A DNA stretch of 64,000 bases, from positions 1 to 64,000 of the forward strand of contig NZ_JAOASO010000023.1 of the NCBI RefSeq assembly GCF_030158645.1. Reading direction: 5' to 3'. Each line of letters begins with the position of its first letter. Within the stretch, counting starts at the first letter, position 1. The stretch comes from Hydrogenophaga sp. (GTDB taxonomy: Bacteria > Pseudomonadota > Gammaproteobacteria > Burkholderiales > Burkholderiaceae_C). Made by a program: the position numbers and the translations under genes. This document shows positions 180 through 16,947 of this stretch, in pieces. The notes under the pieces are model-generated. The model searched no databases, had not been told where the DNA came from, and saw only the letters and a list, made by a program, of their open reading frames with translations.

Positions 180-1445
180 TCACACCAGCCGGATGCGCCC
201 GGTCAGCAGGGCCTGGGCCATGCCTTGTTTGAGCTGGCGGGCTTTGGTCAGGCGGACTTCGAGGGCAGAGATCTCAGTGTCCATGTCGGACAGGATGGTG
301 GCGATGGCGGTTTGCTCTGCGATCTCGGGAGCTCGCACAGATATTTGAGCCAAGGCGGCTGCGCTGATGTGAACAACCGCGTCCCCTTGACCTTTGCTGG
401 CCTTTTGCCGGTTGACTTCAGCGGCATTGAGCGCGTAGCCAAGAAATCGCGAATCGGAAGCCCTTGGCCGCAAGATCACGATATCGCTGCCGGCATAGGC
501 CTCAAAGTCATCCAGAAACGCGACGCACTTGCCGATGTCTTCTTTCGTTTCGCCAGACCCGGCGAACAGAATGTCCCCTTGTCGCAAAGGTGTAGCTGTT
601 GCAGCGACAGCTGGAGAAATTCCAGACTCGAAAGACCGAACGTGGTCTGTGTGGGTCGTGTAAATCTCACCGTAGCGAACGCAAGGAATGGCGCCACTTT
701 GTGCCTGTTCTCGCGTGATGCCTGAACCCTTCAAAAACGTACCTATTTCTCCCAAAGACACGGTACACCACTCAGCTTGGAATCCCGGCAAACGTCGCTG
801 GCCGGTGAGCAGTTCCTGCATCGCGCCTTGCTTGATTTGGCGCTTCTTGGCCAGCAGTTGCTCCAGCGATTCGATCAGAGCGTCGGCATCTTGGAGCGCC
901 TGAGCAATAGACTCTTGTTCCCGCTTGGGCGGTAGAACGACGCGCAGCGACTTGAAGGTGGGCATGTAGACAGTGTTGTGAATACTGCCGGCCATGAGCT
1001 TGCGCCATTCAGGAGCCATGTACCTGAACAGGTACACAAGGAAATGACTGTCAACAGCCGGACCACAAACATAGTTTGCAAAGTCCTGACTCGTGGCCAT
1101 TTCCCTACCCATCGATGTCGCTTTCCCTACCGTGGCGGTCCGCGAAAGAACAACAGTGCCCTTCGGTAGCAAACGGGCCGATGAGTTCTTCAGCCCAGCT
1201 TGCGAGATGTATTGTTGGGTCGCAAGTATCTCCAGGTCGTTCAGTGAGCCCGTGTCGTGGAGTGAAATCCAAGGAATGTTTCCACCCCAATAGGAGGGCT
1301 GCCGACGGCTCGGCGTGTGTCCGCTTTCAAGGCGAGCAACATCCGTGAGTTGCTGGTAGTTCCAGTCCACGGGGATCACACCACCTTCTGTCTGCTTATA
1401 GCCAGCCTGCACCAGGTACTTCGCATTTGGCTCGTTCAGTTCCAT
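180..1445 (-). CDS. hsdS: Type I restriction-modification specificity subunit HsdS
   Basis: A 421-residue protein with the standard HsdS plan: target recognition domain 1 (about residues 20-175), a central conserved helical region (about 180-220), target recognition domain 2 (about 225-375), and a distal helical repeat. The two helical segments are related: both contain a KKRQIKQG/KARQLKQG-type stretch followed by an LLTG motif. It decides which DNA sequence the methylase and nuclease recognise. The ATG overlaps the last 10 bases of hsdM, so translation is probably coupled. Both recognition domains look intact. The target sequence cannot be read from the protein alone. Confidence 0.93.
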   Translation of the reverse strand: MELNEPNAKYLVQAGYKQTEGGVIPVDWNYQQLTDVARLESGHTPSRRQPSYWGGNIPWISLHDTGSLNDLEILATQQYISQAGLKNSSARLLPKGTVVLSRTATVGKATSMGREMATSQDFANYVCGPAVDSHFLVYLFRYMAPEWRKLMAGSIHNTVYMPTFKSLRVVLPPKREQESIAQALQDADALIESLEQLLAKKRQIKQGAMQELLTGQRRLPGFQAEWCTVSLGEIGTFLKGSGITREQAQSGAIPCVRYGEIYTTHTDHVRSFESGISPAVAATATPLRQGDILFAGSGETKEDIGKCVAFLDDFEAYAGSDIVILRPRASDSRFLGYALNAAEVNRQKASKGQGDAVVHISAAALAQISVRAPEIAEQTAIATILSDMDTEISALEVRLTKARQLKQGMAQALLTGRIRLV

Positions 1446-3853
1446 GCGAACCCCATCCGGGCCAGATGCTCGTCCACCCGAGCCTGCAGTTCGTCGGCCC
1501 GTTTCGACACGGCAGGCAGGGGAAGGTCGTAGCGGTCAGCCAGCTCTTTCACCCGCTGCGTCAGGCTCTGGGTGATGCGGTTCAGTTCGGCGTGCATGGA
1601 GGTGTCCAGCGCTGCGAGCCATTTTTCATCCACTACCAAGGTCTGGATCTCGGCTTCGCTCAGGCGCGGGTAGTGGTCGTGGGCCAGTTTGTCCACGTGA
1701 GCGTCCAGCTCCTTGAGGGTTTTCTTGAGCTGGGCTTCTTGCTCGCTGAGCTGCAGCCACTGCCGGAGCACGCCGGCTTCGTCTTGCGCGTCGGCGTCGC
1801 GCTGAATCTCTTTCAGCCGTGCGCTCACCTGGGCCTTGTTCACCTTGTCCAGCTCGGCAAAGGCGCCTTCGTCGCCGCCGTGTTCTTCTTCCAGCTCGGC
1901 GAGCTGGGCGGCCATGGCGTCGAGCTGAGCGCTCATCTCGTTCATGAGCGCCTGCTCTTTGGCGTAGTACCGCGCCACCAGCGTGGCCTTGGACACCAGA
2001 TCGCAGGCCCAGCCCTTGTCCACCTGCTTGCCGGGTTTTCCGTCCTTGCCCTTCTTGGTTTCGATCACGCGGTAGGTGGCGGCCTTCCAGCCGTCGGCCG
2101 CCAGCAGGTAGGCGTCGTCTTGCCAGGTGCTAGCCCACAGGTCCATGAGGCGCTGGTACACGTCGTAGGCGTTGAGCAGCGGTTGGCCCTGGTAATGGGC
2201 CAGCAGGTCTTCGGCCAGCTCCACGATCAAAGCCTTGGGTTTGAAGCCAGGCTTGAGCTTTCTCAGGCGCTGGCTGGCGCGGCTGCGCCAGGCGTCAAAG
2301 TGCGCGGCCATGCGCTGGGTGTAGGCCACGAACTCGGGGTGCTGGTAGATGCTGGTCTGGATGGCGGCTTTGTCCACCGCCAGAGCCAGGTAGCCGGGGC
2401 GCAGCGGCGCGAAGAGGGCCGCGCGCAGCTGCGGGCAGGTGGCCCAGTAGGCCTGCAGCGCGTCCACATCGGCCTGGGGAATGCCGCCGCGCAGGTGGCC
2501 TTCAATGTCTTGCTGGTCTTCGGTCTGGCGGTTTTGCAGGTAGCGCGGCAGGTTGAGGTTGAAGTCGTTCTTTTCGATCTCGGCCAGGGGCACGAGGCGC
2601 GCGTAGGTGGGGTCGCTGCCGTCCTGCTTGCTGTAGGCGTCCACGATGCGGTGGATGTCTTGCTCGCGCAGGCGGTTCTTGGGGCCGTCTTTCATGAAGG
2701 CGGCGCTGCCGTCCACCATGAAGATGCCGCGCCGGGCCTGCGCGTCCTGCTTGTCGATGACGACGATGCAGGCCGGGATGCCGGTGCCAAAGAACAGGTT
2801 GGCCGGCAGGCCGATGATGCCTTGGATGAGCCCACGGCGAACGAGGTTCTTGCGGATCTCGGCTTCGGCATTGCCCCGGAACAGCACGCCATGCGGCAGG
2901 ATGCAGGCGGCTTTGCCCTGGGGCTTGAGCGAGCGGATGATGTGCAGCAGGTAGGCGTAGTCGCCCTGTTTGGTGGGCGGGATGCCAAAGCCCTTGAAGC
3001 GCTCAAACTTGTCGTTGTCGGGCGTGAGGCCGGTGCTCCAGCGCTTGTCTGAAAACGGCGGGTTCGCGACCACGTAGTCGAAGGTCTTGAGCGCAGCGCC
3101 GTCGAGGTGCTTGGGGTTGGCCAGGGTGTTGCCCTGGGTGATGAGGGCGCTGGCGTTGTTGTGCAGCACCATGTTCATCTGCGCCAGGCCGCTGGTGGCT
3201 TCGTCCATTTCTTGCCCGTACAGCGTGACCGGGGTGGGCGCGGCGTCGGCCACTTTCAAGAGCAGCGATCCGGACCCGCAGGTCGGGTCGTACACGGTGG
3301 TGTCGGGCGTGGTCTTGGCCTGGTGGATACCAATGACCTGCGCCAGGATACGGCTGACTTCGGCGGGTGTGTAGAACTGGCCTTTGCTCTTGCCGCTCTC
3401 GGTGGCGAAGTGGCGCATGAGGAATTCGTACGCGTCACCCAGGATGTCGTCACCATCGGCCCGGTTCTTGGAAAAATCGAGCGCCGGGTTTTCAAAGATG
3501 GCGATCAGGTTGCCCAGCTTCTCGACCATTTCCTTGCCCTGGCCGAGCAGAGCGGTGTCGTTGAAGTCGGCCTTGAGACGGATCTTGTTGGCTTTCTCAA
3601 GCGGCTGCAGGATGTGCTTGTTGATCTGGTCGCCAATGTCGGACTTACCCTTGAGGGCCACCATGTCTGCAAAGCTGGCGCCAGCGGGAATCTGGATTGC
3701 GGCGAAGGGCTGGCCCGCAAATTTGTCGCTGATGTATTTGATGAACAGCAGGACCAGCACGTAGTCCTTGTACTGACTGGCGTCCATGCCCCCGCGCAGC
3801 TCGTCGCACGAGGCCCAGAGGGAGGAATACAGCTCGGATTTCTTGATGGCCAT
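1436..3853 (-). CDS. hsdM: Type I restriction-modification DNA methyltransferase HsdM
   Basis: This N6-adenine methyltransferase has 805 residues when started at the ATG at 3853 (MAIKKSELYSSLW), a start familiar from HsdM proteins. The open frame extends to 4117, but the extra 88 residues are unlike the family. The SAM-binding motif DPTCGSGS is near residues 189-196 and the catalytic NPPF is at 264-267. It is longer than the roughly 500-residue classical HsdM. The C-terminal 300 residues are rich in Glu, Gln and Lys heptads and look coiled-coil, a feature of a known longer HsdM subgroup. No Shine-Dalgarno sequence precedes the start. A terminator-like hairpin ends nine bases upstream. Confidence 0.93.
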   Translation of the reverse strand: MAIKKSELYSSLWASCDELRGGMDASQYKDYVLVLLFIKYISDKFAGQPFAAIQIPAGASFADMVALKGKSDIGDQINKHILQPLEKANKIRLKADFNDTALLGQGKEMVEKLGNLIAIFENPALDFSKNRADGDDILGDAYEFLMRHFATESGKSKGQFYTPAEVSRILAQVIGIHQAKTTPDTTVYDPTCGSGSLLLKVADAAPTPVTLYGQEMDEATSGLAQMNMVLHNNASALITQGNTLANPKHLDGAALKTFDYVVANPPFSDKRWSTGLTPDNDKFERFKGFGIPPTKQGDYAYLLHIIRSLKPQGKAACILPHGVLFRGNAEAEIRKNLVRRGLIQGIIGLPANLFFGTGIPACIVVIDKQDAQARRGIFMVDGSAAFMKDGPKNRLREQDIHRIVDAYSKQDGSDPTYARLVPLAEIEKNDFNLNLPRYLQNRQTEDQQDIEGHLRGGIPQADVDALQAYWATCPQLRAALFAPLRPGYLALAVDKAAIQTSIYQHPEFVAYTQRMAAHFDAWRSRASQRLRKLKPGFKPKALIVELAEDLLAHYQGQPLLNAYDVYQRLMDLWASTWQDDAYLLAADGWKAATYRVIETKKGKDGKPGKQVDKGWACDLVSKATLVARYYAKEQALMNEMSAQLDAMAAQLAELEEEHGGDEGAFAELDKVNKAQVSARLKEIQRDADAQDEAGVLRQWLQLSEQEAQLKKTLKELDAHVDKLAHDHYPRLSEAEIQTLVVDEKWLAALDTSMHAELNRITQSLTQRVKELADRYDLPLPAVSKRADELQARVDEHLARMGFAWN

Positions 3854-3862
3854 GGAGAACAC

Positions 3863-3885
3863 AAAAAAGGTGCCTTTGGGCACCT
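3863..3885 (-). terminator. Intrinsic terminator-like hairpin just before hsdM
   Basis: On the minus strand AGGTGCC and GGCACCT form a perfect 7-bp stem with a CAAA loop, directly followed by a run of T (3868-3863). The T run ends nine bases before the hsdM ATG. Any transcript entering hsdM from upstream must pass through it, so it could act as an attenuator or mask the start. It could also be the terminator of the DUF1173 remnant or of the regulator gene. Confidence 0.6.
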
Positions 3886-3950
3886 GAAAAAACTGGGTTA
3901 ACCGGAGGAATGTTACGGCAGCGGGATGGCCGGTTGCCTGTGCTGTGGTA

Positions 3951-4190
3951 CGACAGGGCGGGCATTTCACATTCTGTGGTGTTCCACCGCCAGAGGGACG
4001 TGTTATCAGGGGTGGTCTGCGCCATGAAATCGGGCGGTAAGGGATCGTCATGGCCATGGTCGGGGACGATGAGCAGGGGCCGTGGAGCATCGCCACAGTC
4101 CAGCAGACTGACTGCAACCAAGGGCTGATCGGGCGCTTCGTTGTCTAGGAGCCCGTTAATAAAGCTTCGACCGTTTCGCACAATTGCGCC
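3951..4190 (-). pseudogene. Remnant of a DUF1173-family gene (C-terminal part)
   Basis: The minus-strand frame between the regulator and hsdM reads NGRSFINGLL, then VSLLDCGDAPRPLLIV, then SLWRWNTTECEMP. It aligns in order with the C-terminus of the intact DUF1173 protein at 10501-11844 (EGRSFIKCL, SASLTDCGASPHFLII, PWVWNALVEPLPKIP). The rest of the roughly 450-residue protein is missing and no proper start exists. Identity to the intact copy is only moderate, so it is not a fresh duplicate but a relic of another element. The frame stays open into hsdM, but the sequence after about 3950 no longer looks like the family. Confidence 0.6.
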
Positions 4191-4231
4191 CATAGGTTGT
4201 ATCTCATGGCTTCGCAATTTTTCAGTATTTT

Positions 4232-5188
4232 CTAGCTCCGACGCGCGCGTACTTGGGGGGAATCTTCGGTAACGGGATGTACATAACCAGGTGCCAGCTT
4301 TGCGCTGTCTGACCCATACAGCGAGAGCGGATCTTTAAGCCAGAGCGCGTGTTCATTCCAAGGCTCACTATGGTCTGGCGAACAATCCACCGCCCACAAC
4401 CTAAGCATGTATCCAGCCAGCGCAGCACGAACTGTTGCCCTCAACACGCCGTCTATCATTCGATAGTCTCTGACCACAACGTCAGGCATTTTGTGGTCGG
4501 GGTGAACCACCAAATCAAGTTCCATGATCCGACTCCACTGGGCATCGAATTCAGCGGTCTCCTCCCGCGTCACCTGACTGTCCGCCAAGACAACAGGGTT
4601 CTCCATGCGCGTGGGAACAAAGTCTAGAAACTTCTTCCGCTTGCGATCGAATGCGCGTACGTGCCATCGCGCGCCGCTATTCACCAAGGCAAGGGGAACG
4701 ATCTCGCGCACACCGCCACCACTGGTGACCGAGTAGTAGGTGAGGCGCAAAGGCTTTCTCAGGTTGATCGCGCGCGTAACCGGCGCTAGAACGGACATCG
4801 CCGGCAAGCTCAGTGGGATGGGGTATTCGCAGGGAAGCATGCTCATGGGATGGTCAGCTCCACCATCGCCAAAGCCTTGTGAGAGAGCTGTCAAAACCCT
4901 TTGGGGCGCGTGCTCAAAGAGTGGGACAAATTCGGCACTGGGCTTGTAGACCTTGCCAATCCCGTCGAAGTCCAGGTTTGCAGGAGCGAGCTCCCGATAC
5001 AAGGCGATGTCTCGTGTGGCTGCAGCGGGTCCGGTGCCAAATCGCTCCGTCACATCCGAACGCCGCAGCTTGCCCAGAAAGTACGCGGCGAAATCGATGT
5101 ACGAAAGCCGGTCTTGCTGCGCGCGTGACATGCCCTCCAGGCGGAGCGCGACATCGATTGCTTGGCGTTCTGACATGCCGCGCATCAT
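4232..5188 (-). CDS. WYL-domain transcriptional regulator of the BrxR/CapW type
   Basis: A 318-residue protein. Residues 25-85 form a winged helix ending in IALYRELAPANLDFD, a hallmark of the BrxR/CapW family of defence-associated repressors as I recall it. Residues 135-200 form a WYL-type ligand-sensing domain in which the WYL triplet reads WHV (residues 175-177). The rest matches the C-terminal dimerisation extension. Family members bind inverted repeats at the promoters of BREX, CBASS and other defence loci and release them on infection. The gene is divergent from the two-lipase cluster across a repeat-rich gap and lies upstream of hsdM on the same strand. Alternative ATGs at 5185 and 5176 exist. 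None has a strong ribosome-binding site. Confidence 0.85.
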   Translation of the reverse strand: MMRGMSERQAIDVALRLEGMSRAQQDRLSYIDFAAYFLGKLRRSDVTERFGTGPAAATRDIALYRELAPANLDFDGIGKVYKPSAEFVPLFEHAPQRVLTALSQGFGDGGADHPMSMLPCEYPIPLSLPAMSVLAPVTRAINLRKPLRLTYYSVTSGGGVREIVPLALVNSGARWHVRAFDRKRKKFLDFVPTRMENPVVLADSQVTREETAEFDAQWSRIMELDLVVHPDHKMPDVVVRDYRMIDGVLRATVRAALAGYMLRLWAVDCSPDHSEPWNEHALWLKDPLSLYGSDSAKLAPGYVHPVTEDSPQVRARRS

Positions 5189-5203
5189 ACATCTGGGGGA
5201 GTC

Positions 5204-5259
5204 GTGGTCAGATCACCACCATGCCTTGGCATGATCATTTTGATGATATAACATCGTCA
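5204..5259. promoter_or_regulatory. Divergent promoter region with stacked inverted repeats
   Basis: Rightward, TTGGCA (5226-5231) and TATAAC (5247-5252) form a promoter candidate with a short 15-base spacer. Overlapping it are CATGCC-TT-GGCATG (5220-5233, perfect), ATGATCAT (5231-5238, perfect) and TGATGAT-5-ATCGTCA (5241-5259, one mismatch). GTGGT-6-ACCAC lies at 5204-5219. The region separates a BrxR/CapW-type repressor from the two-lipase cluster, so these are the natural operator candidates. Which one is bound cannot be told from sequence. Confidence 0.5.
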
Positions 5260-5286
5260 TTACGAACTTCATCCGAGATCTATCCC

Positions 5287-5598
5287 ATGTACGAATCCAC
5301 CATGACCTTCTTTTTATCTCGCCCACGCCTGCTTGTTTCGTGCGGCAGGACGCTGATGAAGGCGGCTGCCTATCTGGCGCTGTTGGGGCTGATCGGCCAA
5401 GTCATGAAATCGGTGATGTCTGTCACAGGACGCATTTCCCAGACTCCACCAGTGCAAAGTCTTGCGGAAGCCTACGGCGCAGGTGTCACATGGTTCATAC
5501 CTGAGGGGTTGATCGGCTTTGCCGTCGTGTTGATCTTGGCCGTCACAGGACTGAGTGCCATTCGATTGGGCACAGAACTCGACCGCATGAGCCGCTAG
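5287..5598 (+). CDS. Small two-helix membrane protein, unknown function
   Basis: A 103-residue protein with two hydrophobic segments (about residues 13-45 and 72-95) separated by a short polar loop, so it is probably an inner-membrane protein with both ends on the same side. I recognise no family. It is the first gene of the cluster transcribed away from the BrxR/CapW-type regulator and sits 61 bases before the phospholipase C-like gene. Start is taken at the ATG at 5287; the ATG at 5302 is possible. Its position suggests a membrane anchor or partner for the lipases, which is inference. Confidence 0.6.
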   Translation: MYESTMTFFLSRPRLLVSCGRTLMKAAAYLALLGLIGQVMKSVMSVTGRISQTPPVQSLAEAYGAGVTWFIPEGLIGFAVVLILAVTGLSAIRLGTELDRMSR

Positions 5599-5659
5599 AC
5601 CGCGCAGCAGCTCCACCCGAAACAAATCACGACCAACTTAACCCTGAGAAAGAACGCTC

Positions 5660-6589
5660 ATGTCCGGCGCCTACACCCATCTTGCGATCGCCAATGACGC
5701 ACGCCCTTTGGCGGCAAGGGCTGGCCTGCGCAGCAGTACGCTGAAGTCCCTCGGGCTTCACCTGAAGTACGTTGAGCTTGGTGCCGTGAGTCCGGACTAC
5801 CCATACCTCTGCCTGGATCGGCGGCAAACGGTTTGGGCAGACTTGATGCATTACACGAGCACGGCAAGGCTTGTGCGTGCCGCGGTCAGTGCTGTTCACA
5901 AGCTGCCGCCTGACCTTCAACCACAGGCGACTGCTTGGTTGTTCGGGTTTGCTGCGCACATAACGACTGACATGACGATCCATCCCGTGGTCGAACTGAA
6001 AGTCGGTCCTTACAAAGGAAACGAAGCCGCACATCGACGGTGCGAGATGCATCAGGACGCATACATATTTCCTCGAGTGATGAACGCTGGGGCGACCAAC
6101 CTCACGGAACATCTGAGTACGGGAATCGCGGCATGCTGCGATGGGCAGGATGAAGATCGTCTCCACAAGGCGGTAGAGCAAGTCTGGCTTTCGATGCTGA
6201 AAGACACCTACCCAGACAGGTTCGCAAAAGAGCCCCCAACACCGAGCGCCTGGCATTCAGGCTTCAAAGGCATTGTGACGTCGCTCTCGAAGGCCAATCA
6301 CCTGTTTCCTTTCTCCCGGCATGTCACGGCGAACGCTGGCCTGACCTACCCACCGGAGCGCGACGTTGACAAACAGTACCTCGAGGATCTGGCCACGCCC
6401 GAAGGGCCCAAGAGCTTCGACGAAATCTACGCCAAAGCGCGCGACAACGTCCTCGCCATTTGGAAAGGACTCGATGATGCGTTGATCCTCGGAAATTCAC
6501 CCGAACTGGACCGACTTGAAGACTGGAACCTCGACACAGGACGAAGCGTTTCGACTGGACAACTTGTCTTTTGGGGGAACTCAAAATGA
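5660..6589 (+). CDS. Zinc-dependent phospholipase C-family protein
   Basis: A 309-residue protein that begins with the family-type start MSGAYTHLAIA. It carries the expected pattern of potential metal ligands: His7, Asp46 in GAVSPDYPYL, Asp61 and His64 (WADLMHY), His100 and Asp104 with His108 (AAHITTDMTIHP), and His125, His131 and Asp133 further on. This is the fold of the bacterial zinc-dependent phospholipase C family, which cleaves phospholipid headgroups. No secretion signal is visible, so it would act in the cytoplasm or be exported another way. The stop overlaps the start of the lipoprotein gene (ATGATG), which indicates one operon. Confidence 0.75.
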   Translation: MSGAYTHLAIANDARPLAARAGLRSSTLKSLGLHLKYVELGAVSPDYPYLCLDRRQTVWADLMHYTSTARLVRAAVSAVHKLPPDLQPQATAWLFGFAAHITTDMTIHPVVELKVGPYKGNEAAHRRCEMHQDAYIFPRVMNAGATNLTEHLSTGIAACCDGQDEDRLHKAVEQVWLSMLKDTYPDRFAKEPPTPSAWHSGFKGIVTSLSKANHLFPFSRHVTANAGLTYPPERDVDKQYLEDLATPEGPKSFDEIYAKARDNVLAIWKGLDDALILGNSPELDRLEDWNLDTGRSVSTGQLVFWGNSK

Positions 6590-6999
6590 TGCTGGTGCGA
6601 AAAGCAGCCGCGCTGTTTGCGGCACTCACCCTGCTGAGCTGTGCAACCCAGACAGACGAGCGGGAGATGAACTACCTCGCGTCAGCGCTCACCAAGATAT
6701 CTGCCGCGGTCGACGCAACTGTTCGATACGGCGCACTCGCACCCAACGTCACAGACGACCAGGTTTTGGAGATGGCAACTTCACAAGATCCAGCGCTACT
6801 GAAGAACTTCGCAGGTCAGACCGTCCGCGTGATTCGGCAAGGTGAAAACTCGGCCGTGCTTGTCTGTGAACGCGTCACTGGCAAGGCCTTGCTTGAGGAT
6901 GCCGGGTGCACAGCAAAAATGGACCTGCATCGATGGAACATGGCGGCAACGCGAACCTGCGAACCCGTTCTTGATTTGAATCGAGTTTGCGGTCAATAA
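6586..6999 (+). CDS. Small lipoprotein encoded between two lipase-like genes
   Basis: A 137-residue protein with a clear lipoprotein signal: charged start, hydrophobic core and the lipobox LLSC with Cys19. It should therefore be exported and lipid-anchored. The mature part has five further cysteines (two near residues 104-111 and three near 127-136), suggesting disulfides. Family unknown. A GGGGGA ribosome-binding site precedes the ATG at 6586, which overlaps the previous stop. Type VI lipase effectors of the Tle1 kind are often paired with lipoprotein immunity proteins, so an immunity role against the next gene is possible but unproven. Confidence 0.7.
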   Translation: MMLVRKAAALFAALTLLSCATQTDEREMNYLASALTKISAAVDATVRYGALAPNVTDDQVLEMATSQDPALLKNFAGQTVRVIRQGENSAVLVCERVTGKALLEDAGCTAKMDLHRWNMAATRTCEPVLDLNRVCGQ

Positions 7000-7019
7000 A
7001 AAAGGGCAGGGAGTTCCAA

Positions 7020-8297
7020 GTGTCAAAGAACATCGTCATCTTCTCCGACGGGACCGGGCAGGCTGGAGGGCTGAGGCCTGACCAAAATCTCAGCAACATC
7101 TACAAGCTGTTTCGTGCGTCACGCATTGGACCAGAGAGCCCAATTGATCCCAAGGAACAAGTGGCGTTCTACGACGCAGGGCTTGGCACTGACAACGATG
7201 GTGGAAGTATTCCATTCAGGTCGGTTCAGTGGTTTCGAAAGATGTGGAGCAGCGTGACCGGCACTGGCATCAGCCGAAACATCGCGGACTGCTATGAAGC
7301 AATCCTCAAACACCACGAGCCGGGCGACCGAGTTTTCCTGTTCGGGTTCAGTCGTGGAGCGTACACAGCCAGGTGTGTTGGTGGCGTGATGGCCCTTTGC
7401 GGCGTGCCCACGCGGGCTGCAGACGGAGGTCCTCTTCCACGCCTGGGAAGAGATCTGAGAAAGATCGCAGACGAGGCCGTTCAAGAGGTGTATGAGCATG
7501 GCTCCGGAAGCGACTTGCCCGAGCGAAAAGCGGAACGTTTGGAGAAGGCCCGGCGTTTTCGGCAGAAGTACCGTTGTGAGGACGAGTCTGGTGCGCCAAA
7601 CGCCGCGCCGTACTTCATTGGTGTTTTCGACACGGTAGCTTCTCTGGGGGCATCTGGCCTGCGAAGACTTGGGATGTTGCTTCTGCTTGTTGGCTTCGTC
7701 GCTCTCATGACCGCCATCGTGACCGGGGTCGTTAACGCGGTGCTGCCATTCGGAAGCTACTGGCGGACCCTTTTTGCTTTGTGTCTCGCAATCGGAGCAA
7801 TCATCCTTGCTTTATCTTTCAAGGTCAGCCTGAAAACGATCAAGGATTTTCCGAACAAAGGAAACTTCAGTTGGCACCTTGCTGCGTGGCGTTTCCGCTT
7901 CTACGACAACAACTTGAATCCAAACGTCCGGTATGCCAGGCACGCCATTGCCATCGACGAGGATCGAAGGGACTTTCAGCGGGTGCCATGGGGGTCGCCA
8001 AAGGACTGGCCAGATCGAAAAGGCGAACCAGAATGGCTGCGCCAGATATGGTTTGCGGGCAACCACTCTGACATTGGGGGGAGCTATCCAGAGGACGAAT
8101 CTCGCCTTTCTGATGTATCCCTTGAGTGGATGCTCGAGGAGGCAACCAGCCTGCCACATGCGCTACGGGTCGACAGATCACGGCTGCACCTCTTCCCTGA
8201 CCCTACGGGCATGCAGCACTGCGAAATCGAAAGCATGCGGAACTCGTACCCCTCGTGGATACCGGACCGGCTGCGCCCAGTCTGGGCACGTCAATAA
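7020..8297 (+). CDS. DUF2235 / Tle1-like alpha-beta hydrolase (predicted phospholipase)
   Basis: A 425-residue protein started at GTG 7020, which has AGGGAG seven bases upstream. An in-frame TTG at 6987 lacks this. The nucleophile motif GFSRG (Ser111) lies in GFSRGAYTAR, an acid candidate is Asp204 in GVFDTVASLG, and the C-terminal FAGNHSDIGG matches the DUF2235 family that includes type VI Tle1 phospholipases. Two transmembrane segments (about 216-240 and 248-268) interrupt the catalytic domain, so it is probably membrane-bound. No VgrG or PAAR gene is nearby, which argues against a plain type VI effector. It follows the lipoprotein gene by 20 bases. Confidence 0.8.
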   Translation: MSKNIVIFSDGTGQAGGLRPDQNLSNIYKLFRASRIGPESPIDPKEQVAFYDAGLGTDNDGGSIPFRSVQWFRKMWSSVTGTGISRNIADCYEAILKHHEPGDRVFLFGFSRGAYTARCVGGVMALCGVPTRAADGGPLPRLGRDLRKIADEAVQEVYEHGSGSDLPERKAERLEKARRFRQKYRCEDESGAPNAAPYFIGVFDTVASLGASGLRRLGMLLLLVGFVALMTAIVTGVVNAVLPFGSYWRTLFALCLAIGAIILALSFKVSLKTIKDFPNKGNFSWHLAAWRFRFYDNNLNPNVRYARHAIAIDEDRRDFQRVPWGSPKDWPDRKGEPEWLRQIWFAGNHSDIGGSYPEDESRLSDVSLEWMLEEATSLPHALRVDRSRLHLFPDPTGMQHCEIESMRNSYPSWIPDRLRPVWARQ

Positions 8298-8362
8298 CGC
8301 GACCTTAAAGCCCAAGCACCTTTGCACCCGTCAGTCGCCGTCCGCATACGCCATATGAACGG

Positions 8363-8376
8363 CGTACTGCAGTACG
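8363..8376. promoter_or_regulatory. Perfect 14-bp palindrome upstream of the CBASS genes
   Basis: CGTACTGCAGTACG is a perfect palindrome in the 228-base gap between the lipase cluster and the CBASS effector, about 150 bases before the effector start. It is a plausible dimer binding site. No good promoter could be assigned with confidence in the gap. Confidence 0.35.
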
Positions 8377-8525
8377 GTCGAAGAGCTCCTTACCGTCCTA
8401 CAAATTTGATTGCTCATGAAGTTGCGGTTGGTATTCTTCAAGAGCAAGGCGTGGATGGCTGAGCAAACTGCCTGAGCGAGCGAGGGAAGTCGCACGCGCC
8501 AACAACTACGATTCGGAAATGAAGC

Positions 8526-9164
8526 TTGACCTCAACTAACGATCATGAATACGCCGTGCTGGGCGGAATCAATCGCGCCAGCATCGGCCGCTATCTGGCC
8601 ATTTTGTCCAGTTCAATATCAGCGGGGCTTGTCTTTGTGCTGCTTCAAGCTCAGAACTTCGCCAGTTCGATGGGCTTGCACGTCAATTTGCCACCCATTG
8701 TGTTGTCACTTGCCGGTGCGGGCGCGGTGTACACGCTGCTCTTCTGGGTACTTAACAACCATGCGTGGAAATGGCGCCCACTGTCACTCATGCTAAAGGT
8801 GCCCAACCTCGCGGGCACCTGGGACTGCAAGGGCGAGAGCTTGGACCGTGATGGCAAAGTCGTCTATGCGTGGACGGCAGAGGTGGCGATCGTTCAATGC
8901 TGGGACAGACTCCGCGTGCGGCTCAAGACCTCGCAGTCTGGCTCCAACAGCATGGCAGCCGCGCTGACCCATGACAACGTCGATGGCTGGTTGCTTCTCT
9001 ATCAGTATCGGAACGATCCCAAGATTGGCGAGCCCGAGTTGCGCTCGCACGTCGGCACCTGCAGCGTGACGTTCTCCAAAGATCTCGCATACGCCTCCGC
9101 CGAGTACTTCAATGGTGTGGGGCGTGCGACGTTTGGCAAGATGACCTGGACCCGGAGGAAATGA
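8526..9164 (+). CDS. cap15: CBASS membrane effector, Cap15-like (2TM plus beta-barrel)
   Basis: A 212-residue protein with two transmembrane helices (about residues 22-42 and 56-77) and a beta-rich domain from residue 92 that opens with NLAGTWDCKG. This is the Cap15 layout, in which the beta domain binds the cyclic nucleotide and the membrane helices assemble to disrupt the inner membrane. The gene is coupled to the nucleotidyltransferase that follows (overlapping TGA/ATG). The best start is a TTG at 8526, as no ATG fits; a GTG at 8556 is the alternative. The identity as Cap15 rests on layout plus remembered family sequence. Confidence 0.85.
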   Translation: MTSTNDHEYAVLGGINRASIGRYLAILSSSISAGLVFVLLQAQNFASSMGLHVNLPPIVLSLAGAGAVYTLLFWVLNNHAWKWRPLSLMLKVPNLAGTWDCKGESLDRDGKVVYAWTAEVAIVQCWDRLRVRLKTSQSGSNSMAAALTHDNVDGWLLLYQYRNDPKIGEPELRSHVGTCSVTFSKDLAYASAEYFNGVGRATFGKMTWTRRK

Positions 9165-10282
9165 TGGCCCGTGATATCAATCAGCGACTGCAGCAACTGC
9201 GCATCCGACGTGACGGCTCGCGCGGCACTGCCATGGACAGCGCAACGCTCGGATCTATCTTTAGGTCGGCCCCGCCAATTGAGCTGTGGGAGTCACGCGG
9301 CACGGGTGACCAGCCCAATACGCGCTATGCGCTGGGATCCATGCAGGCCGTCAGCGACACCTACACACGAGTGAGCAAGGACACCGCCGATCGAGTAGCC
9401 AACCAATTGAAGGAGCGCCTTGCGAAGGACGGTATTGACGCTGAGTTCAAGCTGCAAGGATCGGTGCCGCTTGACGTACATATCAAGGGGGTCAGCGATG
9501 TCGATCTGCTGACACTGTCCAACGAGCTATTCTCATACCACCCGAACGGTATCAAGGCGCTGCGCGGCGACTATACGAACCCTGCAAGGCGCAACTCGCT
9601 GGGTGTCCTTATCGAATTGCGCAGCCGTGTAGAGGTCAGGCTGGAAGAAGCCTTTCCAGCGGCCAAGGTGGACAAGGCGGGCGCGAAGGCAGTGAAGATC
9701 TCAGGCGGGTCGCTGGCCCGTGATGTGGACGTCGTCCCTGCCCACTGGTCTGATACTGTCCAGTATCAAGCGACGGGTAGAGCATCGGATCGCGGCACCA
9801 AGATCCTGGACAAAAGAGCGATGACGACGATCGAGAACCAGCCATTTCGTCACATTGAACTCATAGGAGCGCGGTGCGACCTAAGCGGCGGCGGACTGCG
9901 CAAGGCGATTCGCCTGTGCAAGAACGTCAAGGCGGACTCTGACCGTAAGGTAACCTTGCCCAGCTTCGACATCGCTTCAGTCATGTACCACGCGGACCTG
10001 GATGCACTGAGGCACGGCCGCTACTATGAACTTTCGATCCTCGCCGAGACGCAGCGTCACTTGGACGTACTTGCTTGCAGTCACGCCATGGCCCAGACCT
10101 TATATGTGCCCGATGGCAGCCGGCTGATCTTTGACACTGCCGAGAAGCTGCAAGGCTTGAATGAGTTATCGCGCGATATGGACGAACTCCTGAGCGCAGT
10201 TCACGCTGAGCACGCGCCAAGTTATCTGTCGAACCAACTTATGAGCGAGAAGCGGCAGACGATCAGTGCGCTCGCCGCTTGA
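9164..10282 (+). CDS. CD-NTase (cGAS/DncV-like nucleotidyltransferase) of CBASS
   Basis: A 372-residue enzyme with the nucleotidyltransferase signature: Gly99-Ser100 in LQGSVPLDV, the metal-binding Asp112 and Asp114 (SDVDLL), and a third acidic site at RDVDVV (Asp187/Asp189). It should make a cyclic oligonucleotide on phage infection to switch on the Cap15-like effector. The start at 9164 is preferred over 9161 because GGAGG then lies five bases away. No Cap2/Cap3 or HORMA/TRIP13 genes follow, so this is a minimal two-gene (type I) system. The nucleotide product cannot be inferred here. Confidence 0.9.
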   Translation: MARDINQRLQQLRIRRDGSRGTAMDSATLGSIFRSAPPIELWESRGTGDQPNTRYALGSMQAVSDTYTRVSKDTADRVANQLKERLAKDGIDAEFKLQGSVPLDVHIKGVSDVDLLTLSNELFSYHPNGIKALRGDYTNPARRNSLGVLIELRSRVEVRLEEAFPAAKVDKAGAKAVKISGGSLARDVDVVPAHWSDTVQYQATGRASDRGTKILDKRAMTTIENQPFRHIELIGARCDLSGGGLRKAIRLCKNVKADSDRKVTLPSFDIASVMYHADLDALRHGRYYELSILAETQRHLDVLACSHAMAQTLYVPDGSRLIFDTAEKLQGLNELSRDMDELLSAVHAEHAPSYLSNQLMSEKRQTISALAA

Positions 10283-10296
10283 TGCACACCTAGCTA

Positions 10297-10312
10297 CCGC
10301 CGCCTCCGGCGG
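10297..10312 (+). terminator. GC-rich hairpin between CBASS and the conjugation operon
   Basis: CCGCCG and CGGCGG pair around a CCTC loop, 14 bases after the CD-NTase stop and between two convergent operons. No T run follows, so it is at best a weak or Rho-assisted terminator. The remaining 10313-10500 holds no recognisable gene. Confidence 0.3.
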
Positions 10313-10500
10313 GTACCAGCGCATCTTTCAGATCAAGACCGATGGCATCCAATGAGCGATCGCGAGAGCTTCGTCGTCCTTGCGATCGTTCAATCAGAAC
10401 AGAGTCACACGTAGGTCGTTGTGGGCAGGGAGCAGCAGCTGCCGGTCATCCGGGCCCACGGCACTAAGGACCGCTGTCGCTGCACGACGGACCTACAGCA

Positions 10501-11844
10501 TTAGGTTCTGGATGTCTGCATGGTCGATCGTGAGCCCCAATTCAATTGATCCCCCGACGCTGGTTTGAATAGCAGAGGCTCGATGTAGCTTCGACCTTTG
10601 ACAGGAATCTTCGGTAGTGGCTCAACGAGCGCGTTCCATACCCACGGGCGCTGACCCTCACTGGTGATCAATCGTTCAAGATCCCCAGCGCTCTCATCTT
10701 TGTTGAAGGATTGCCGTTCAATGATCAAGAAATGCGGCGAGGCACCACAGTCGGTGAGGCTGGCACTGACCCCCACCTTGGATGTCGGCGCGTTGTACCG
10801 AAGACATTTGATGAAAGAGCGGCCCTCTCCCACAAGCTTTTCAAGGAGTTGGCGGTCGAAATGATCCTCGATGAGGTGCCACTGCGCGGTGGCTGGCATC
10901 AGTGACAGCTCCACGATGTTGGGCAGGCCTGCATCAGTCATTCTGAAAGTCGCAATCATCAACATGTGCAGGTTTTCTACCGCGCTCCAAAGCGCCAACT
11001 CCTGCTCAAAACACCGGGCGAGCCGGCGGTACAGCTGGTCATCGAGCCCGAACGGTTGGTCGGGAACATGTTTGATGACTGCCTTGTGGCCATAACGGGC
11101 CGGGACGATCTCTTTGACCTCGACGATCATGAGCATCAATGGCTGGGGAGACCCCGATGTTGGTCTTGAGCGCGTCCACTGCTGCAGGCGGCGCGCGGTG
11201 ATGGCGTCCTTGTTTTCAACCGAAAACACCTCCGGGATGTAGAGGCTGGCCAAGAGCGGATGGCCGCCGACGACCTTGTTCTCGGCGGCGCGCAGCAGGT
11301 GGCGGCGCACGGTGGCCCAGGATCTTTTGCCAGTGAAGCTGGGTTGCCATCGCGTCAGTTCGGCCTGGTCCCACAGGTAGTGCAACAGGCTGCGCAGGGT
11401 CAGCTTGTTGCCTTGGGACGAGGCGCTGCTGGCGGTGCTGCTTGCCGGCGGTGGTGCCGAGCGCCCCGGCATCTTGGTCATCGGGAAGTCCAGCTTCAGC
11501 GTTGTTGTGCCGGTGGACGGATTTTCGAGAATGGCCGTTCCGAGAAGTTGCCCCAGACCGGAGAGATCTGCCGGTGGCTCGTAGGAGGGGCAGGCGGTGG
11601 CGTGTTGGCTGCCAGTGTTCGGCATGCGTTTGACGATGTAGCCGTCCAGCAGACGGGCCACATACATCTCGATGCCTTGGCCCTGAGTGTCTCGCTGGCA
11701 CAGGCAGCGGGGGCGCAGGTGCTGTTCGTGGGCTTGCGCGACGGCCTCTTCAAAACCTGTCGTGCCCTTGTTCCAGCGCTGGCCGCCGATCTCGTAAGCG
11801 ACTTGCGGCTCCGATGGTTCGAGAGCGTGTTCCGGGGCACGCAC
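10501..11844 (-). CDS. DUF1173 family protein (conjugative-element accessory)
   Basis: A 447-residue protein. Residues 15-75 include a cysteine-rich part (RCLCQRD and a later CPSYEPP) typical of the start of DUF1173 proteins. The middle has LLHYLWDQAELTRWQP, and the C-terminal third carries GRSFIKCL and SLTDCGASP. Members are found almost only in integrative and conjugative elements and related plasmids, with no settled function. It is the last gene of the leftward conjugation operon, 10 bases after the LPD7 gene. A diverged remnant of a second copy lies at 3951-4190. Confidence 0.8.
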   Translation of the reverse strand: MRAPEHALEPSEPQVAYEIGGQRWNKGTTGFEEAVAQAHEQHLRPRCLCQRDTQGQGIEMYVARLLDGYIVKRMPNTGSQHATACPSYEPPADLSGLGQLLGTAILENPSTGTTTLKLDFPMTKMPGRSAPPPASSTASSASSQGNKLTLRSLLHYLWDQAELTRWQPSFTGKRSWATVRRHLLRAAENKVVGGHPLLASLYIPEVFSVENKDAITARRLQQWTRSRPTSGSPQPLMLMIVEVKEIVPARYGHKAVIKHVPDQPFGLDDQLYRRLARCFEQELALWSAVENLHMLMIATFRMTDAGLPNIVELSLMPATAQWHLIEDHFDRQLLEKLVGEGRSFIKCLRYNAPTSKVGVSASLTDCGASPHFLIIERQSFNKDESAGDLERLITSEGQRPWVWNALVEPLPKIPVKGRSYIEPLLFKPASGDQLNWGSRSTMQTSRT

Positions 11845-13073: not shown

Positions 13074-13751
13074 TCAGGGTTGAGGGGGAGGCGTCGCCCG
13101 CAGGGCCACCGGCAAAGCCCGGTACACCTCGATCTCGACCCGCCGGTTCAGGTCACGGCCCTGCGGGTGGTGGTTGTCGGCGACGTGGTCACCGCTGGGC
13201 TGGTGGGTGCTGCGGATGCGCGCAGCATCGACGCCGGCGGCCACCAGGTAGTCGCGCACGGCCGCGGCGCGGGCCTGGGCCATGCGGCTCTCGGCGGGTG
13301 TGTCGGTGTTGCCGTCGGTGCGTCCGCGCAGCACCACCAGCGGCGCGACTCTGGCGTCCTCCAGCAGCGCGGTGGCCACCTCGGTGGGGATGAGCACGCG
13401 CGCACTGCCAAAAGCGAAGCGCACCGTGTGCACGCTGTTGGCCAACGGGGCCGGTGACAAAGACGGCGGCGCGGGTGACGAAGGCATTTGCATGGCCGCG
13501 AGCAGTTGCTGGCGCGCCGCCAGGTGGGTAAGGGTCGCGGAGGCTGTGTCTGCCAACCGACCCGATTCGATCGCCAGAATGCGGGTGTTGTGCAGGTCGT
13601 TCTTGCAGACCTGCAGCTCCACCGCCATCTGTGCGTTGGCTGGACGCTTCTGCGATTCGTCCACCGTCGGTGGTTTGGGCGGCGAGCCACAGGCGCTCAG
13701 CAGCGCACCCAGCAAGCAGCACGCAGCGAGGCTAGGGGTGGGGATTTTCAT
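13074..13751 (-). CDS. OmpA-domain lipoprotein of the conjugation operon
   Basis: A 225-residue protein with a lipoprotein signal ending in the lipobox LLSAC (Cys21). A central helical stretch follows, then a C-terminal OmpA-type peptidoglycan-binding domain (about 105-215) with VRFAFGSARVL, a GRTDGNTDT segment and the conserved DLNRRVEIEV. It would link the outer membrane to the cell wall. Its start overlaps the virD4 stop by four bases. No classical virB7 is seen, so this may be the lipoprotein partner of the VirB9/VirB10 channel or a separate anchor. Confidence 0.8.
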   Translation of the reverse strand: MKIPTPSLAACCLLGALLSACGSPPKPPTVDESQKRPANAQMAVELQVCKNDLHNTRILAIESGRLADTASATLTHLAARQQLLAAMQMPSSPAPPSLSPAPLANSVHTVRFAFGSARVLIPTEVATALLEDARVAPLVVLRGRTDGNTDTPAESRMAQARAAAVRDYLVAAGVDAARIRSTHQPSGDHVADNHHPQGRDLNRRVEIEVYRALPVALRATPPPQP

Positions 13752-15814
13752 GGTCGGTCTCCTGTGGTCTCGAACAGTTCGCGGTTCACACCCGTCTGTG
13801 CGGGTGCCGCCGCTGAAGTCGTTGTGCCATCTGCGTCCGCAGCGGGGTTGAGCTCGACGGGCTCAATCGACCCACCATCGTCCAGAGTCGTTGACGGATT
13901 GGCCGGCAGACCTTGACTGAAAAACTCCAGCAGTGCCTCAGCAGTCTGTTCAGGAGACCCGTGAAAGTCGTCCGGCAGCAACGTGAGGTCGTGCGCGAGG
14001 GCTTCCACGGACAGGCTCTCGTCCGCTGCGAGTTCGTCGTCGGCAAAGCGCCAGCGCTGCTGCACCCGGGCCAGGTGCAGCTCAACATCCATGCGGGGCA
14101 CCAGCGGGGCGGGGAACAGGCGTGATTTGAAAGCCTTGTCACTGAAATAACGGATCTTCTCGGCCAGGATGGGTTTGCAGTTCTCGCAGATCACCACCAG
14201 TCGCTCACGGCCCAGTTCCTTGAACTCTTGCGGGAGCAGGAGGGCGCGGCGTTGGTCACTCTCGTTGCGACTCACCGTGCTGTGGCCGTGGCCACTGAAG
14301 GAACGGCTGCGCCCGCGCGAGGTGGCGCGTTCCGTGAAGTGGCCGAGCATGGCGCTGTACTCATCGGCGTCGCGCTGTTCACGCGGCGCGTAGAGGATCT
14401 GCAGGCCGTGGTTGGTGGCGAAGGTGCGCGCCTCCTTGTCGCCGTAGACCGCGTCCAGCTGCGACATGGCCTGCACCACCGTCAGCAGGCGCAGGTTGTA
14501 GCCCGCCAGAAAAGCCGCTGCGTTGGTGATGACACCCACCCGGCCCATGGCGGTGAACTCGTCGTTGACCAGCAGGCACTGCAGCTTCAGACTGGGGTCC
14601 TGCTCGGGCAGGTGCTGGGTGTTGAGGCTGACCAGTTGCGAGAAAAACAGGTTCAGCAGCGGGCGTGCGTTGGCCAGGCGGTTGGGCGGGATGCGCACAT
14701 AAATCGACATGCGCCGCCGCCTCAGGTCCTCCAGACGGAAATCGTTGGCGCTGGTCGCAGCATCCACCACCGCGTCCGCAAAAATCGTCAGCGGCGCGTG
14801 GAAGGTGGCGACCACACTGGCGAGTGTGTTCTCCGAGTTTGAGAGCAGGCGCTGCAGGGCATCGACACATTCGTCTGTCAGTGCACGGCCATCGTCACGG
14901 CGCTGGGTGATCAGGCTGCTCAGGTGGTCTTTGAGGGGGCGACCTTGGCCTGAGGACTGGCGCAACATCTCGCCGACCGTGCGCGGGAGCTCGGGGGTCT
15001 CCAGCAGGAGCAAGCCCAAACCCAGGAACAGGTTGCGCGCTTGGTCGTTGAAGAATGCTTCGGACGAGCTACCACCCCCGTCGTTCGGAAAAAACACCTG
15101 TCCGATGCCCAGCAGGTCCCCCACCCTGTGCAGCGGGCTGGTGCGCACAGCACTCAGCGGGTTCCAGCGGTGGCTGCGCGCCTCTTCGTCGAACGGCGAG
15201 AAAGCGAACACCGTCTGACCGTGCGCGGCACGAATACCGGCCGTGATCGCGTGGTTCTCGCCCTTGATGTCGAGCACCACGACCGAATCGGGCCAGTTGA
15301 GCAGGTTGGGGATCACCACGCCCACACCTTTGCCGCTGCGTGTGGGCGCGGACAACATGACCGAGAGCTGGCCGGGCAGGGCGAGGAACCGACCCCGGAA
15401 GCGCCCGATCAGGATGCTGGGCCCGGAGGACGGATTGTTTGAGGCGATCAAACCAGCGCGCGCGACCTCGGACGGGGTGGCAAAGCGTGCATCGCCGTGC
15501 AAGGCCCGGCGCGGCCTGGCTGCCGCGATCAGCGCGCCGGGCAACACCACGAGCAGCCCGATGCCGGACAAGGCCATGGCAGCCAGCAACTGTTTGCGCA
15601 GCGCAGCGTCGGTGGCGTAGATCTGCCAGTAGCCGACGACGCTTCCCCACCGGGCCTGGCGCGGATCTGCCTTGTTGAACACCAGAAACAGCACACCCGC
15701 CAGATACACGGCCGCGCAGGTGAGCGCTCCGTAGGCCGCGACCGAAAAAATGCCCGCCGCGATCTTTCGACCCAGAGGCCACGCCGAAAAGGATACCGAG
15801 GTCAGTGCGCTCAT
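13748..15814 (-). CDS. virD4: Type IV coupling protein VirD4/TraG
   Basis: A 688-residue ATPase that brings the DNA-relaxase complex to the secretion channel. Two N-terminal membrane segments (about 15-45 and 78-98) are followed by Walker A in APTRSGKGVG (about 156-165) and a DIKGE stretch. The ATG at 15814 overlaps the virB11 stop (ATGA). An in-frame ATG 30 bases upstream is less likely. The full length and intact ATPase motifs suggest a working protein. The C-terminal tail is acidic and Thr/Ala-rich, possibly for substrate recognition. Confidence 0.92.
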   Translation of the reverse strand: MSALTSVSFSAWPLGRKIAAGIFSVAAYGALTCAAVYLAGVLFLVFNKADPRQARWGSVVGYWQIYATDAALRKQLLAAMALSGIGLLVVLPGALIAAARPRRALHGDARFATPSEVARAGLIASNNPSSGPSILIGRFRGRFLALPGQLSVMLSAPTRSGKGVGVVIPNLLNWPDSVVVLDIKGENHAITAGIRAAHGQTVFAFSPFDEEARSHRWNPLSAVRTSPLHRVGDLLGIGQVFFPNDGGGSSSEAFFNDQARNLFLGLGLLLLETPELPRTVGEMLRQSSGQGRPLKDHLSSLITQRRDDGRALTDECVDALQRLLSNSENTLASVVATFHAPLTIFADAVVDAATSANDFRLEDLRRRRMSIYVRIPPNRLANARPLLNLFFSQLVSLNTQHLPEQDPSLKLQCLLVNDEFTAMGRVGVITNAAAFLAGYNLRLLTVVQAMSQLDAVYGDKEARTFATNHGLQILYAPREQRDADEYSAMLGHFTERATSRGRSRSFSGHGHSTVSRNESDQRRALLLPQEFKELGRERLVVICENCKPILAEKIRYFSDKAFKSRLFPAPLVPRMDVELHLARVQQRWRFADDELAADESLSVEALAHDLTLLPDDFHGSPEQTAEALLEFFSQGLPANPSTTLDDGGSIEPVELNPAADADGTTTSAAAPAQTGVNRELFETTGDRP

Positions 15815-16947
15815 CTGTGCGCGCCCTCGAAGGCCGATGCACATGATGTGGGACGATCGATCCCGCGTTCCTGCGCCGGCGAGTCGTACCGGCGTTGGGG
15901 TTCGTAACGAATATCGGCGATGAAGCGCCCCCGCTCGTCCCGGTCGAATTGCACGATGACATCGATAACGATGTGCAGCAGCGCCTTGATCTCGTCCATG
16001 CGCAGGCCACCACCCGCGCCACTTTCACGGATCATCAGCGACATCTGTTCCAGGGCCAGGGCACAGCTGCCGGCGTGCACGCTGGTGATGCTGCCCGGAT
16101 GGCCGGAGGCCGCCAGCCGGATGAACGAAAAACACTCTTCGCCGCGAAGCTCGGCGAGGAAGATGCGGTCTGGCTTCATGCGCAGGCAGGCTTCCAGGAG
16201 CGACTTGGCCGATACACGCGCGGTGCCCTGGGCGTCCTTGCTGTAGAAGAGGTGCACCACGTTCGGGTGATTCGGCAAGGTGAGCTCGGCCGTGTCCTGG
16301 ATCGTGATCAGCCGCTCGTGCTTCGGCACCTCCTCGACCAGGCCTTTCATGAAGGTGGTTTTGCCCGACCCGGTTTTGCCGCTGACCACGATGGTCTGGT
16401 GGTGGCGCACGGCCAGGCGCAGGAACTCGGCGAACTGTCCCGCCGATTTCAAGTTGATCAGCTCCTGCTCAAAAGGACGCAGGCCTTCGTTGGTCGAGCC
16501 GCCGTCCTTGCTGTTGTGTTCACCGAGGCGATCGAACAGCCCATCGCGCTCAAAATCGCCCAGCCGCAAAATCAGCTCGGACGGTTTGCGCACCGTGATC
16601 GAGACCGTGCCGCGTGGCACCGCCGGTGGAATGGCGAACTGGATGCGCTCGCCGCTGGGCAAGGTGGCCGAGAGCAGGGGCCGTTCCTGGTTGATCTGCT
16701 GGTCGCAGAACGTGGCCACGGCGGTGGCCAGGGACAGGCAACGCTCCTGCGTCATCTCGGGCACAGCAACAGTTTTCCAGCCGCGCGCGGTCTCCACCTG
16801 GAGTTCACCTGGCCGGTTCACACAGACCTCCAGCACGCCCGGCGCGTCGAGCTGCTCACGCAGCGGGCGCAGAAACTCGATGACCGAGGTGGCGTCACCG
16901 CACCAGCCTTCGAAGAGCACTTCCTGGTCGTGGGCCATGGTGGTCAT
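15811..16947 (-). CDS. virB11: Type IV secretion ATPase VirB11
   Basis: A 378-residue hexameric traffic ATPase with Walker A GKTGSGKT at residues 190-197, an Asp box (TIQDTAELTL), a Walker B-type segment DRIFLAELRG and a His box ASGHPGSITSVHA. It powers pilus assembly and switches the channel between pilus and DNA transfer modes. Its ATG overlaps the virB10 stop by four bases. Confidence 0.95.
   Translation of the reverse strand: MTTMAHDQEVLFEGWCGDATSVIEFLRPLREQLDAPGVLEVCVNRPGELQVETARGWKTVAVPEMTQERCLSLATAVATFCDQQINQERPLLSATLPSGERIQFAIPPAVPRGTVSITVRKPSELILRLGDFERDGLFDRLGEHNSKDGGSTNEGLRPFEQELINLKSAGQFAEFLRLAVRHHQTIVVSGKTGSGKTTFMKGLVEEVPKHERLITIQDTAELTLPNHPNVVHLFYSKDAQGTARVSAKSLLEACLRMKPDRIFLAELRGEECFSFIRLAASGHPGSITSVHAGSCALALEQMSLMIRESGAGGGLRMDEIKALLHIVIDVIVQFDRDERGRFIADIRYEPQRRYDSPAQERGIDRPTSCASAFEGAHR

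Follow-up and report, generated by a model that had tools for sequence, protein, structure and literature searches.

Phospholipases acting at the membrane are already known as effectors of cyclic oligonucleotide-based antiphage signaling systems (CBASS), CapE being a patatin effector of this kind. PMC9122588 names CapV and reports 160 systems in which CapW lies upstream of the CBASS core genes and is encoded on the other strand; PMC9122601 describes BrxR homologues as adjoining diverse defense systems. Here we consider a locus in a 64,000-nucleotide stretch of Hydrogenophaga sp. DNA (contig NZ_JAOASO010000023.1, positions 1 to 64,000; the window), in which genes for a small membrane protein, a zinc-dependent phospholipase C (PLC), a lipoprotein and a DUF2235 lipase stand between a divergent CapW/BrxR-type regulator and a CBASS gene pair (Table 1). 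The strongest finding is that the DUF2235 protein belongs to a subfamily with a membrane insertion, members of which lie beside several immune-signaling systems. This is a stronger result than the claim of an earlier note on this DNA, which had proposed a self-contained four-gene defense cassette with its own WYL repressor.

The subfamily set comprises 34 loci: eight (the window included) that carry PLC, lipoprotein and DUF2235 genes as a trio, 20 plasmid regions and six further genomes. The plasmid members are 20 of 128 matching records, 26 of the 128 covering 80% of the query at a single site; outside the set stand L120 and L121 (partial matches from the phylum, not extended), L070 (remote) and L142 (found later). 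Comparison was with 56 other DUF2235 proteins drawn from samples of the family and of the order; the L050 fragment is not judgeable, leaving 55. The catalytic Asp and His lie 138 to 158 residues apart in all 34 members, against 60 to 89 in the assessable others, and a hydrophobic stretch between them (mean hydropathy ≥1.6 over 19 residues) occurs in 34/34 members and 0/55 others. D10, S111 of the GFSRG motif, D204 and H349 of the window's protein are identical in 35 alignment rows. At 26 of the 34 loci, there is no match to the PLC or the lipoprotein.

CBASS genes lie in or beside eight subfamily loci (the window, L022, L108, L111, L115, L116, L125 and L138), and the best cyclase models there are of five kinds (PDLC00772 in the window, 00817, 00796, 00809 and 00808). 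At L108, L111, L115 and L116, DUF2235 follows CD-NTase and SLATT genes at 3 to 30 bp. The same distance separates it from the CBASS genes at L125, where the order is a divergent WYL gene, cyclase, HORMA, TRIP13, NucC, DUF2235 and a nuclease; at L138 it stands 108 bp behind HORMA, cyclase and NucC-type genes. The DUF2235s of the L115 and L138 plasmids are more than 90% identical and are followed by the same annotated type IV secretion system (T4SS) gene, with different CBASS types before them; the CBASS front seems to have been swapped while DUF2235 stayed. At L106, a SLATT fragment (7597-7740, 75% identical) just behind DUF2235 is probably a decayed CBASS.

Signaling genes of other kinds also occur. 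ThsB genes lie beside DUF2235 at L112 (3725-4435, 566 bp away; a call from a separate search, since the L112 piece in the PADLOC neighbor scan was in the wrong frame) and at L132 (3785-4729, 272 bp away). At L127, a TIR gene (8781-9494) 198 bp from DUF2235 is 32% identical to the TIR of L132 over 145 residues. These three are possible Thoeris-like pairs; ThsA was not recognized among the few neighbors scanned at them, and the ThsB query had no match within 1.5 kb of the window's DUF2235. An annotated metallohydrolase gene and an E2-bearing Mov34 gene precede DUF2235 at L103, the E2 domain scoring above the Pfam cutoff and the MBL and E1 calls drawing on annotation and on scores below curated cutoffs. 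Altogether, a CBASS, SLATT, TIR or E2/E1 gene lies no more than 1.5 kb away at 13 of the 34 loci, which fall in 10 of the 29 clusters formed at 90% identity. The link to defense that the earlier note had suggested is supported.

A Fisher test on these clusters (10/29 versus 0/57, 5.7e-6) is not relied on, as its queries came from the subfamily's own neighborhoods and it sets plasmids and mixed taxa against Burkholderiales chromosomes. The PADLOC neighbor scan used unbiased queries, with taxa and replicon types still differing between the samples, and this difference counts against the effector reading. Around the subfamily (68 pieces, after 11 PLC or lipoprotein pieces had been removed from 79), cyclase, ThsB, NucC, TRIP13 and 2TM effector models were all present among the 25 families listed of 70. 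Around the 57 other DUF2235 loci, 55 of which supplied 114 pieces, 15 families were matched, with no cyclase, ThsB, NucC, TRIP13 or 2TM effector among them.

Within the window, the WYL regulator matches PDB entries 7qfz (1.5e-77), CapW 9c5g (1.4e-26) and BrxR 7t8k (1.3e-19), and it is divergent, 98 bp upstream of the membrane protein gene, so that its earlier assignment to the BrxR/CapW type stands. The membrane protein and PLC genes are 61 bp apart, the PLC and lipoprotein genes overlap by 4 bp and 20 bp separate the lipoprotein from DUF2235, a spacing that is operon-like. All four genes and the regulator exist where the note had put them; its starting position, 5204, falls in the control region, and the membrane protein gene begins at 5287. 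Sigma-70-like matches in the control region occur at 5226-5254 (+) and 5211-5184 (-), the whole scan giving three versus 2.4 in shuffles. On the same strand, downstream of DUF2235, both a cyclase gene and a recognized effector, Cap15, are present. Terminator-like sites in 4100-10600 are no commoner than in shuffles, and none lies between DUF2235 and Cap15. The order of the genes and the position known for CapW make the CBASS more likely part of one CapW-headed region than a mere neighbor of the lipase genes; the note, which had it as a neighbor, was right about its presence and its side, as about the type I restriction genes on the other flank.

Table 1. Features of the locus and of the integrative conjugative element that carries it in the window
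Feature	Coordinates	Strand	Evidence or remark
HsdS	180-1445		Upstream neighbor
HsdM	about 1436-3832		Upstream neighbor
CapW/BrxR-type WYL repressor	4232-5188	-	Pfam WYL, 40.9 bits; PDB matches
Divergent control region, 98 bp	5189-5286		Presumed CapW operator region
Small membrane protein, 103 aa	5287-5598	+	Hydrophobic segments
Zinc-dependent PLC, 309 aa	5660-6589	+	PF00882, 80.8 bits
Lipoprotein, 137 aa, PLC partner	6586-6999	+	Pairing with PLC
DUF2235 lipase, 425 aa, GTG start, membrane insertion, in-frame stop	7020-8297	+	PF09994, 224.6 bits
54 in-frame codons past the DUF2235 stop	8298-8462	+	Local alignment to C-termini of relatives
Cap15, CBASS membrane effector	8526-9164	+	PF18153, 134.5 bits; PF23471, 52.8 bits; PADLOC 2TM effector, 278.8 bits
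CD-NTase, CBASS cyclase	9161-10282	+	PADLOC Cyclase PDLC00772, 468.7 bits
TraG	13748-15844		T4SS gene
TrbI	16944-18347		T4SS gene
TrbL	20811-21878		T4SS gene
LuxR-type autoinducer-binding regulator	27784-28737		On the element
Integrase	31678-33003	-	Phage_integrase
tRNA-Ser	33082-33171		Adjoins integrase

The window's own DUF2235 gene is short. The codons beyond its stop match the C-termini of all five relatives tried, with local scores of 86 to 132 against best shuffle scores of 35 to 50 (300 shuffles each). The best database match (95% identity) has 480 aa, and the relatives listed (120 of 4,738 matches, as representatives of 90% clusters among which shorter members could be hidden) span 469 to 548 aa. 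From this post-stop homology and these lengths, we conclude that intact copies exist and that the stop in the present one reflects either a truncation or a misreading in the assembly; its catalytic motifs are located before the stop. The earlier description of a DUF2235 lipase with internal membrane helices holds for the PF09994 domain and the hydrophobic insertion, and had missed the in-frame stop that leaves the open reading frame short.

In the small membrane protein, segment 74-92 is over threshold (2.46) and a weaker segment starts at residue 26 (1.52); the two helices previously described are plausible, the first being a borderline prediction. Three database proteins are listed at 85 to 99% identity to it, one of them probably the window's own, and a diverged homologue (27% by direct comparison) lies upstream of the PLC-lipoprotein pair at L008. 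The PLC combines its domain match with conserved His, Asp and Glu metal-ligand candidates: D46, H64, H100, D104, H108, H125, E129 and D133 are identical in 42/42 rows, and we presume that certain of these bind the metal. No hydrophobic (signal) segment was found in it. The lipoprotein, which has 142 database matches, shows a hydrophobic N-terminus with a lipobox-like Cys, invariant Cys94, 108, 125 and 135 in 22 rows, and an AlphaFold2 model with a predicted local distance difference test score (pLDDT) of 82.5. Pfam, PADLOC and NCBIfam assign it no family, and the latter two assign none to the PLC or DUF2235. With PF00882 and PF09994, two unrelated phospholipid-cleaving folds do occur in one gene run, as had been noticed; for the PLC and lipoprotein we infer a role in defense.

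To follow the gene set, 39 PLC relatives were retrieved with six exact peptide patterns scanned across one genome per species (84,980 species), and their neighbors were assigned by tblastn (E ≤ 1e-3). The lipoprotein lies beside the PLC at 37 of these loci, DUF2235 at seven, a WYL gene at one (29.5% identity, same strand) and the small membrane protein at none. On these counts, a fixed four-gene system with a WYL regulator was rejected, and the self-contained cassette of the earlier note is not supported. By this co-occurrence check across genomes, the four genes do not travel as a fixed set, and trio relatives have other regulators upstream.

The trio is another matter. All seven DUF2235-bearing PLC loci (L001 to L006 and L022) are from Comamonadaceae, and all reproduce the window's order and spacing, with a 4-bp PLC-lipoprotein overlap and 16 to 24 bp between lipoprotein and DUF2235; the association is therefore more than chance. 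On the PLC phylogeny, a single label change accounts for the eight trio rows, but support is low (64/32; seen in 62% of bootstrap trees), and the DUF2235s of the same loci form a clade supported at 100/98. Among 250 sampled family genomes, the PLC occurs at full length in one, the window's own. Directly behind DUF2235 stand a CD-NTase at L022 (a SLATT/2TM gene lies further on), a PDC-M48B defense-candidate protein at L001 and an AAA ATPase at L002 and L004. Upstream, the regulator is a divergent XRE plus CapP pair at L005 and L022 and an RmrA-like protein with helix-turn-helix and IrrE parts on the same strand at L002 (scanned) and L004 (by similarity); L001 has WYL and an uncharacterized membrane protein. 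The trio at L001 also sits in a dense defense island (702-6238), where a TIR-pAgo component is encoded upstream together with E2/E1 and MBL-like genes. At L003 and L005 the contig runs out shortly after DUF2235. Genes of unannotated loci come from a simple caller, with some frames misread (L007, L030).

The PLC-lipoprotein pair has an existence outside defense, because the PLC recurs without DUF2235 in, for example, nine Nitrosospira/Nitrosovibrio (Nitrosomonadaceae) loci, in eight of which the same ABC transporter gene adjoins the PLC, in three Shewanella loci with common neighbors and at L008. The last of these, in a Hydrogenophaga (7618-9331), has membrane protein, PLC and lipoprotein genes beside what we take, from reading the proteins, to be gyrB-dnaN-dnaA; this three-gene arrangement is possibly the ancestral form. 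On an Aliarcobacter plasmid (L109:3814-7335), E2/E1 (ThiF), JAB and PLC genes stand in a row with a small gene that weakly matches the lipoprotein, again without DUF2235.

Based on these sequence features, we give an even chance to the reading that the locus is the front of a CapW-headed CBASS region to which a lipase cassette has been added, with DUF2235 as an accessory inner-membrane lipase effector. Upon infection or DNA stress, CapW would leave the divergent promoter, and the cyclase signal would open Cap15. A hydrophobic hairpin would hold DUF2235 in the inner membrane and keep the two halves of its Ser-Asp-His site on the cytosolic side, where it may cleave inner-leaflet phospholipids as a second effector. 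The PLC and lipoprotein, elsewhere a standalone chromosomal pair, would have become joined to DUF2235 in Comamonadaceae, and the PLC probably contributes to the same abortive response by stripping headgroups from phospholipids. More tentatively, and at somewhat less than even confidence, we propose that membrane-hairpin DUF2235 proteins are an unrecognized phospholipase effector family common to CBASS (with at least five cyclase models), Thoeris-type TIR and E2/E1 systems, to which Comamonadaceae would add the PLC and lipoprotein as a two-enzyme membrane-destruction cassette. If so, one effector family serves both CBASS and Thoeris-type TIR signaling, and its activator becomes a testable question. 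The novelty would lie in a type VI secretion system (T6SS) toxin fold that is membrane anchored and encoded behind unrelated immune-signaling genes. The locus itself is best filed as a CBASS-linked membrane attack variant rather than as a stand-alone system.

Several observations weigh against an effector role. At 21 of the 34 subfamily loci, the queries used detected none of these signaling genes (CBASS, SLATT, TIR, E2/E1) within 1.5 kb; DUF2235 lies among metabolic genes at L107 (by annotation) and at L126 and L128 (by reading of their open reading frames), and the trios at L003, whose contig ends just behind DUF2235, and L006 have no recognized defense neighbor. Neither the window's Cap15 nor its cyclase type occurs at any of the other 33 loci, and a WYL match occurs at two (L001 and L125). 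The other DUF2235 loci, for their part, match type I restriction endonuclease, mad2/mad3, GajB and MBL-type models in one or two of 114 pieces each. CBASS operons with DUF2235 already hold other effectors (Cap15, SLATT or NucC), so that DUF2235 would be an addition, and Pfam recognizes no nucleotide-binding or sensor domain in it. The window's copy is without the conserved C-terminus, and the lipase arm may here be weak or dead. DUF2235 is missing from 32 of 39 PLC loci, of which 30 retain the lipoprotein and several occupy stable chromosomal positions, and none of the 32 matched the defense queries, which were drawn from the DUF2235 subfamily's own neighborhoods. The best inverted repeat between CapW and the membrane protein gene has arms matching at 7/10 and was equaled by 207 of 300 shuffles; no CapW operator repeat stood out above chance.

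These loci without DUF2235, which partly share the same chromosomal neighbors across species, and the two trios without a recognized defense neighbor are what an alternative would predict in which the PLC-lipoprotein(-DUF2235) genes are a lipid-turnover or envelope module on mobile elements, brought into a defense island by chance beside an independent CBASS. We regard this as unlikely, though it deserves serious weight: the DUF2235 subfamily lies beside several unrelated nucleotide-signaling systems, at 3 to 30 bp in L108, L111, L115, L116 and L125, and the PADLOC scan found no cyclase or ThsB around other DUF2235 loci. The strict pairing of PLC and lipoprotein (37/39) and their 4-bp overlap in 7/7 trio loci would also suit an autotoxic PLC restrained by a dedicated lipoprotein, DUF2235 having joined later as a separate gene. 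Such a toxin-antidote pair is improbable, as the PLC has no hydrophobic export signal whereas the lipoprotein should be outside the cytosol, and as the stable chromosomal homes of the pair are unlike those of toxin-antitoxin loci.

A Tle1-type T6SS toxin with the lipoprotein as its immunity partner, the alternative weighed in the earlier note, draws on the naming of PF09994 for Tle1 and on a weak profile match of DUF2235 to 4o5p (E 5.8e-4), which we take to be Tle1, its record reading uncharacterized protein. We consider it very improbable, since the host genome (92.78% complete) has no match to TssC (PF05943) or VgrG (PF05954), the latter absence as the note had said; PAAR was not searched. 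The membrane insertion is absent from 55/55 assessable other DUF2235 proteins, and the lipoprotein accompanies the PLC, not DUF2235, most subfamily loci matching neither. A T6SS effector was rejected on the missing TssC and VgrG and on the membrane insertion. A phage-gene origin was likewise rejected: the phage collection contained no PLC or DUF2235 and the viral contigs no PLC. One DUF2235 (L142) does occur in the viral contigs, without a defense neighbor by the queries used.

Downstream, an integrative conjugative element (10501-33171) carries DUF1173, LPD7 and T4SS genes and an integrase beside tRNA-Ser, and the defense genes are its cargo. In the open-license PubMed Central (PMC) literature, outside which most subscription papers lie, we found no paper joining DUF2235 and CBASS. 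DUF2235 with nucleotidyltransferase appeared there only in a polymorphic-toxin context, DUF2235 with phage gave titles on secretion systems, polymorphic toxins and interbacterial competition, and lipase terms did not occur jointly with defense terms among the matches listed. The main texts of PMC9122588 and PMC9122601 do not contain DUF2235; the accessible part of PMC13092281 describes a phospholipase-cGAS system and does not mention DUF2235, and that of PMC12839542 has no lipase of this kind.

Compared with known systems, the window's DUF2235 resembles Tle1 (PF09994) T6SS effectors in its domain, its GFSRG nucleophile, its Asp and His sites and its weak match to 4o5p; it differs in the long Asp-His interval with hydrophobic segments that marks its subfamily, and in a host genome showing no TssC or VgrG match (PAAR not searched). 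Thoeris is approached by the relatives at L112, L132 and L127, with ThsB-type or TIR genes near DUF2235; it is not in the window, and no ThsA was recognized among the few neighbors scanned in those relatives. The regulator is like BrxR/CapW repressors in sequence and in divergent placement (PMC9122588), but four extra genes separate CapW from Cap15 and no operator repeat rises above chance. There is also a likeness to CBASS with a patatin-type phospholipase (CapV): a cyclase-led antiphage operon, a phospholipase expected to harm the inner membrane and CapW divergent upstream. In place of a patatin, for which neither DUF2235 nor the PLC matches a Pfam model, the window has a Tle1-type alpha/beta-hydrolase and a PF00882 PLC, in an operon that already has Cap15.

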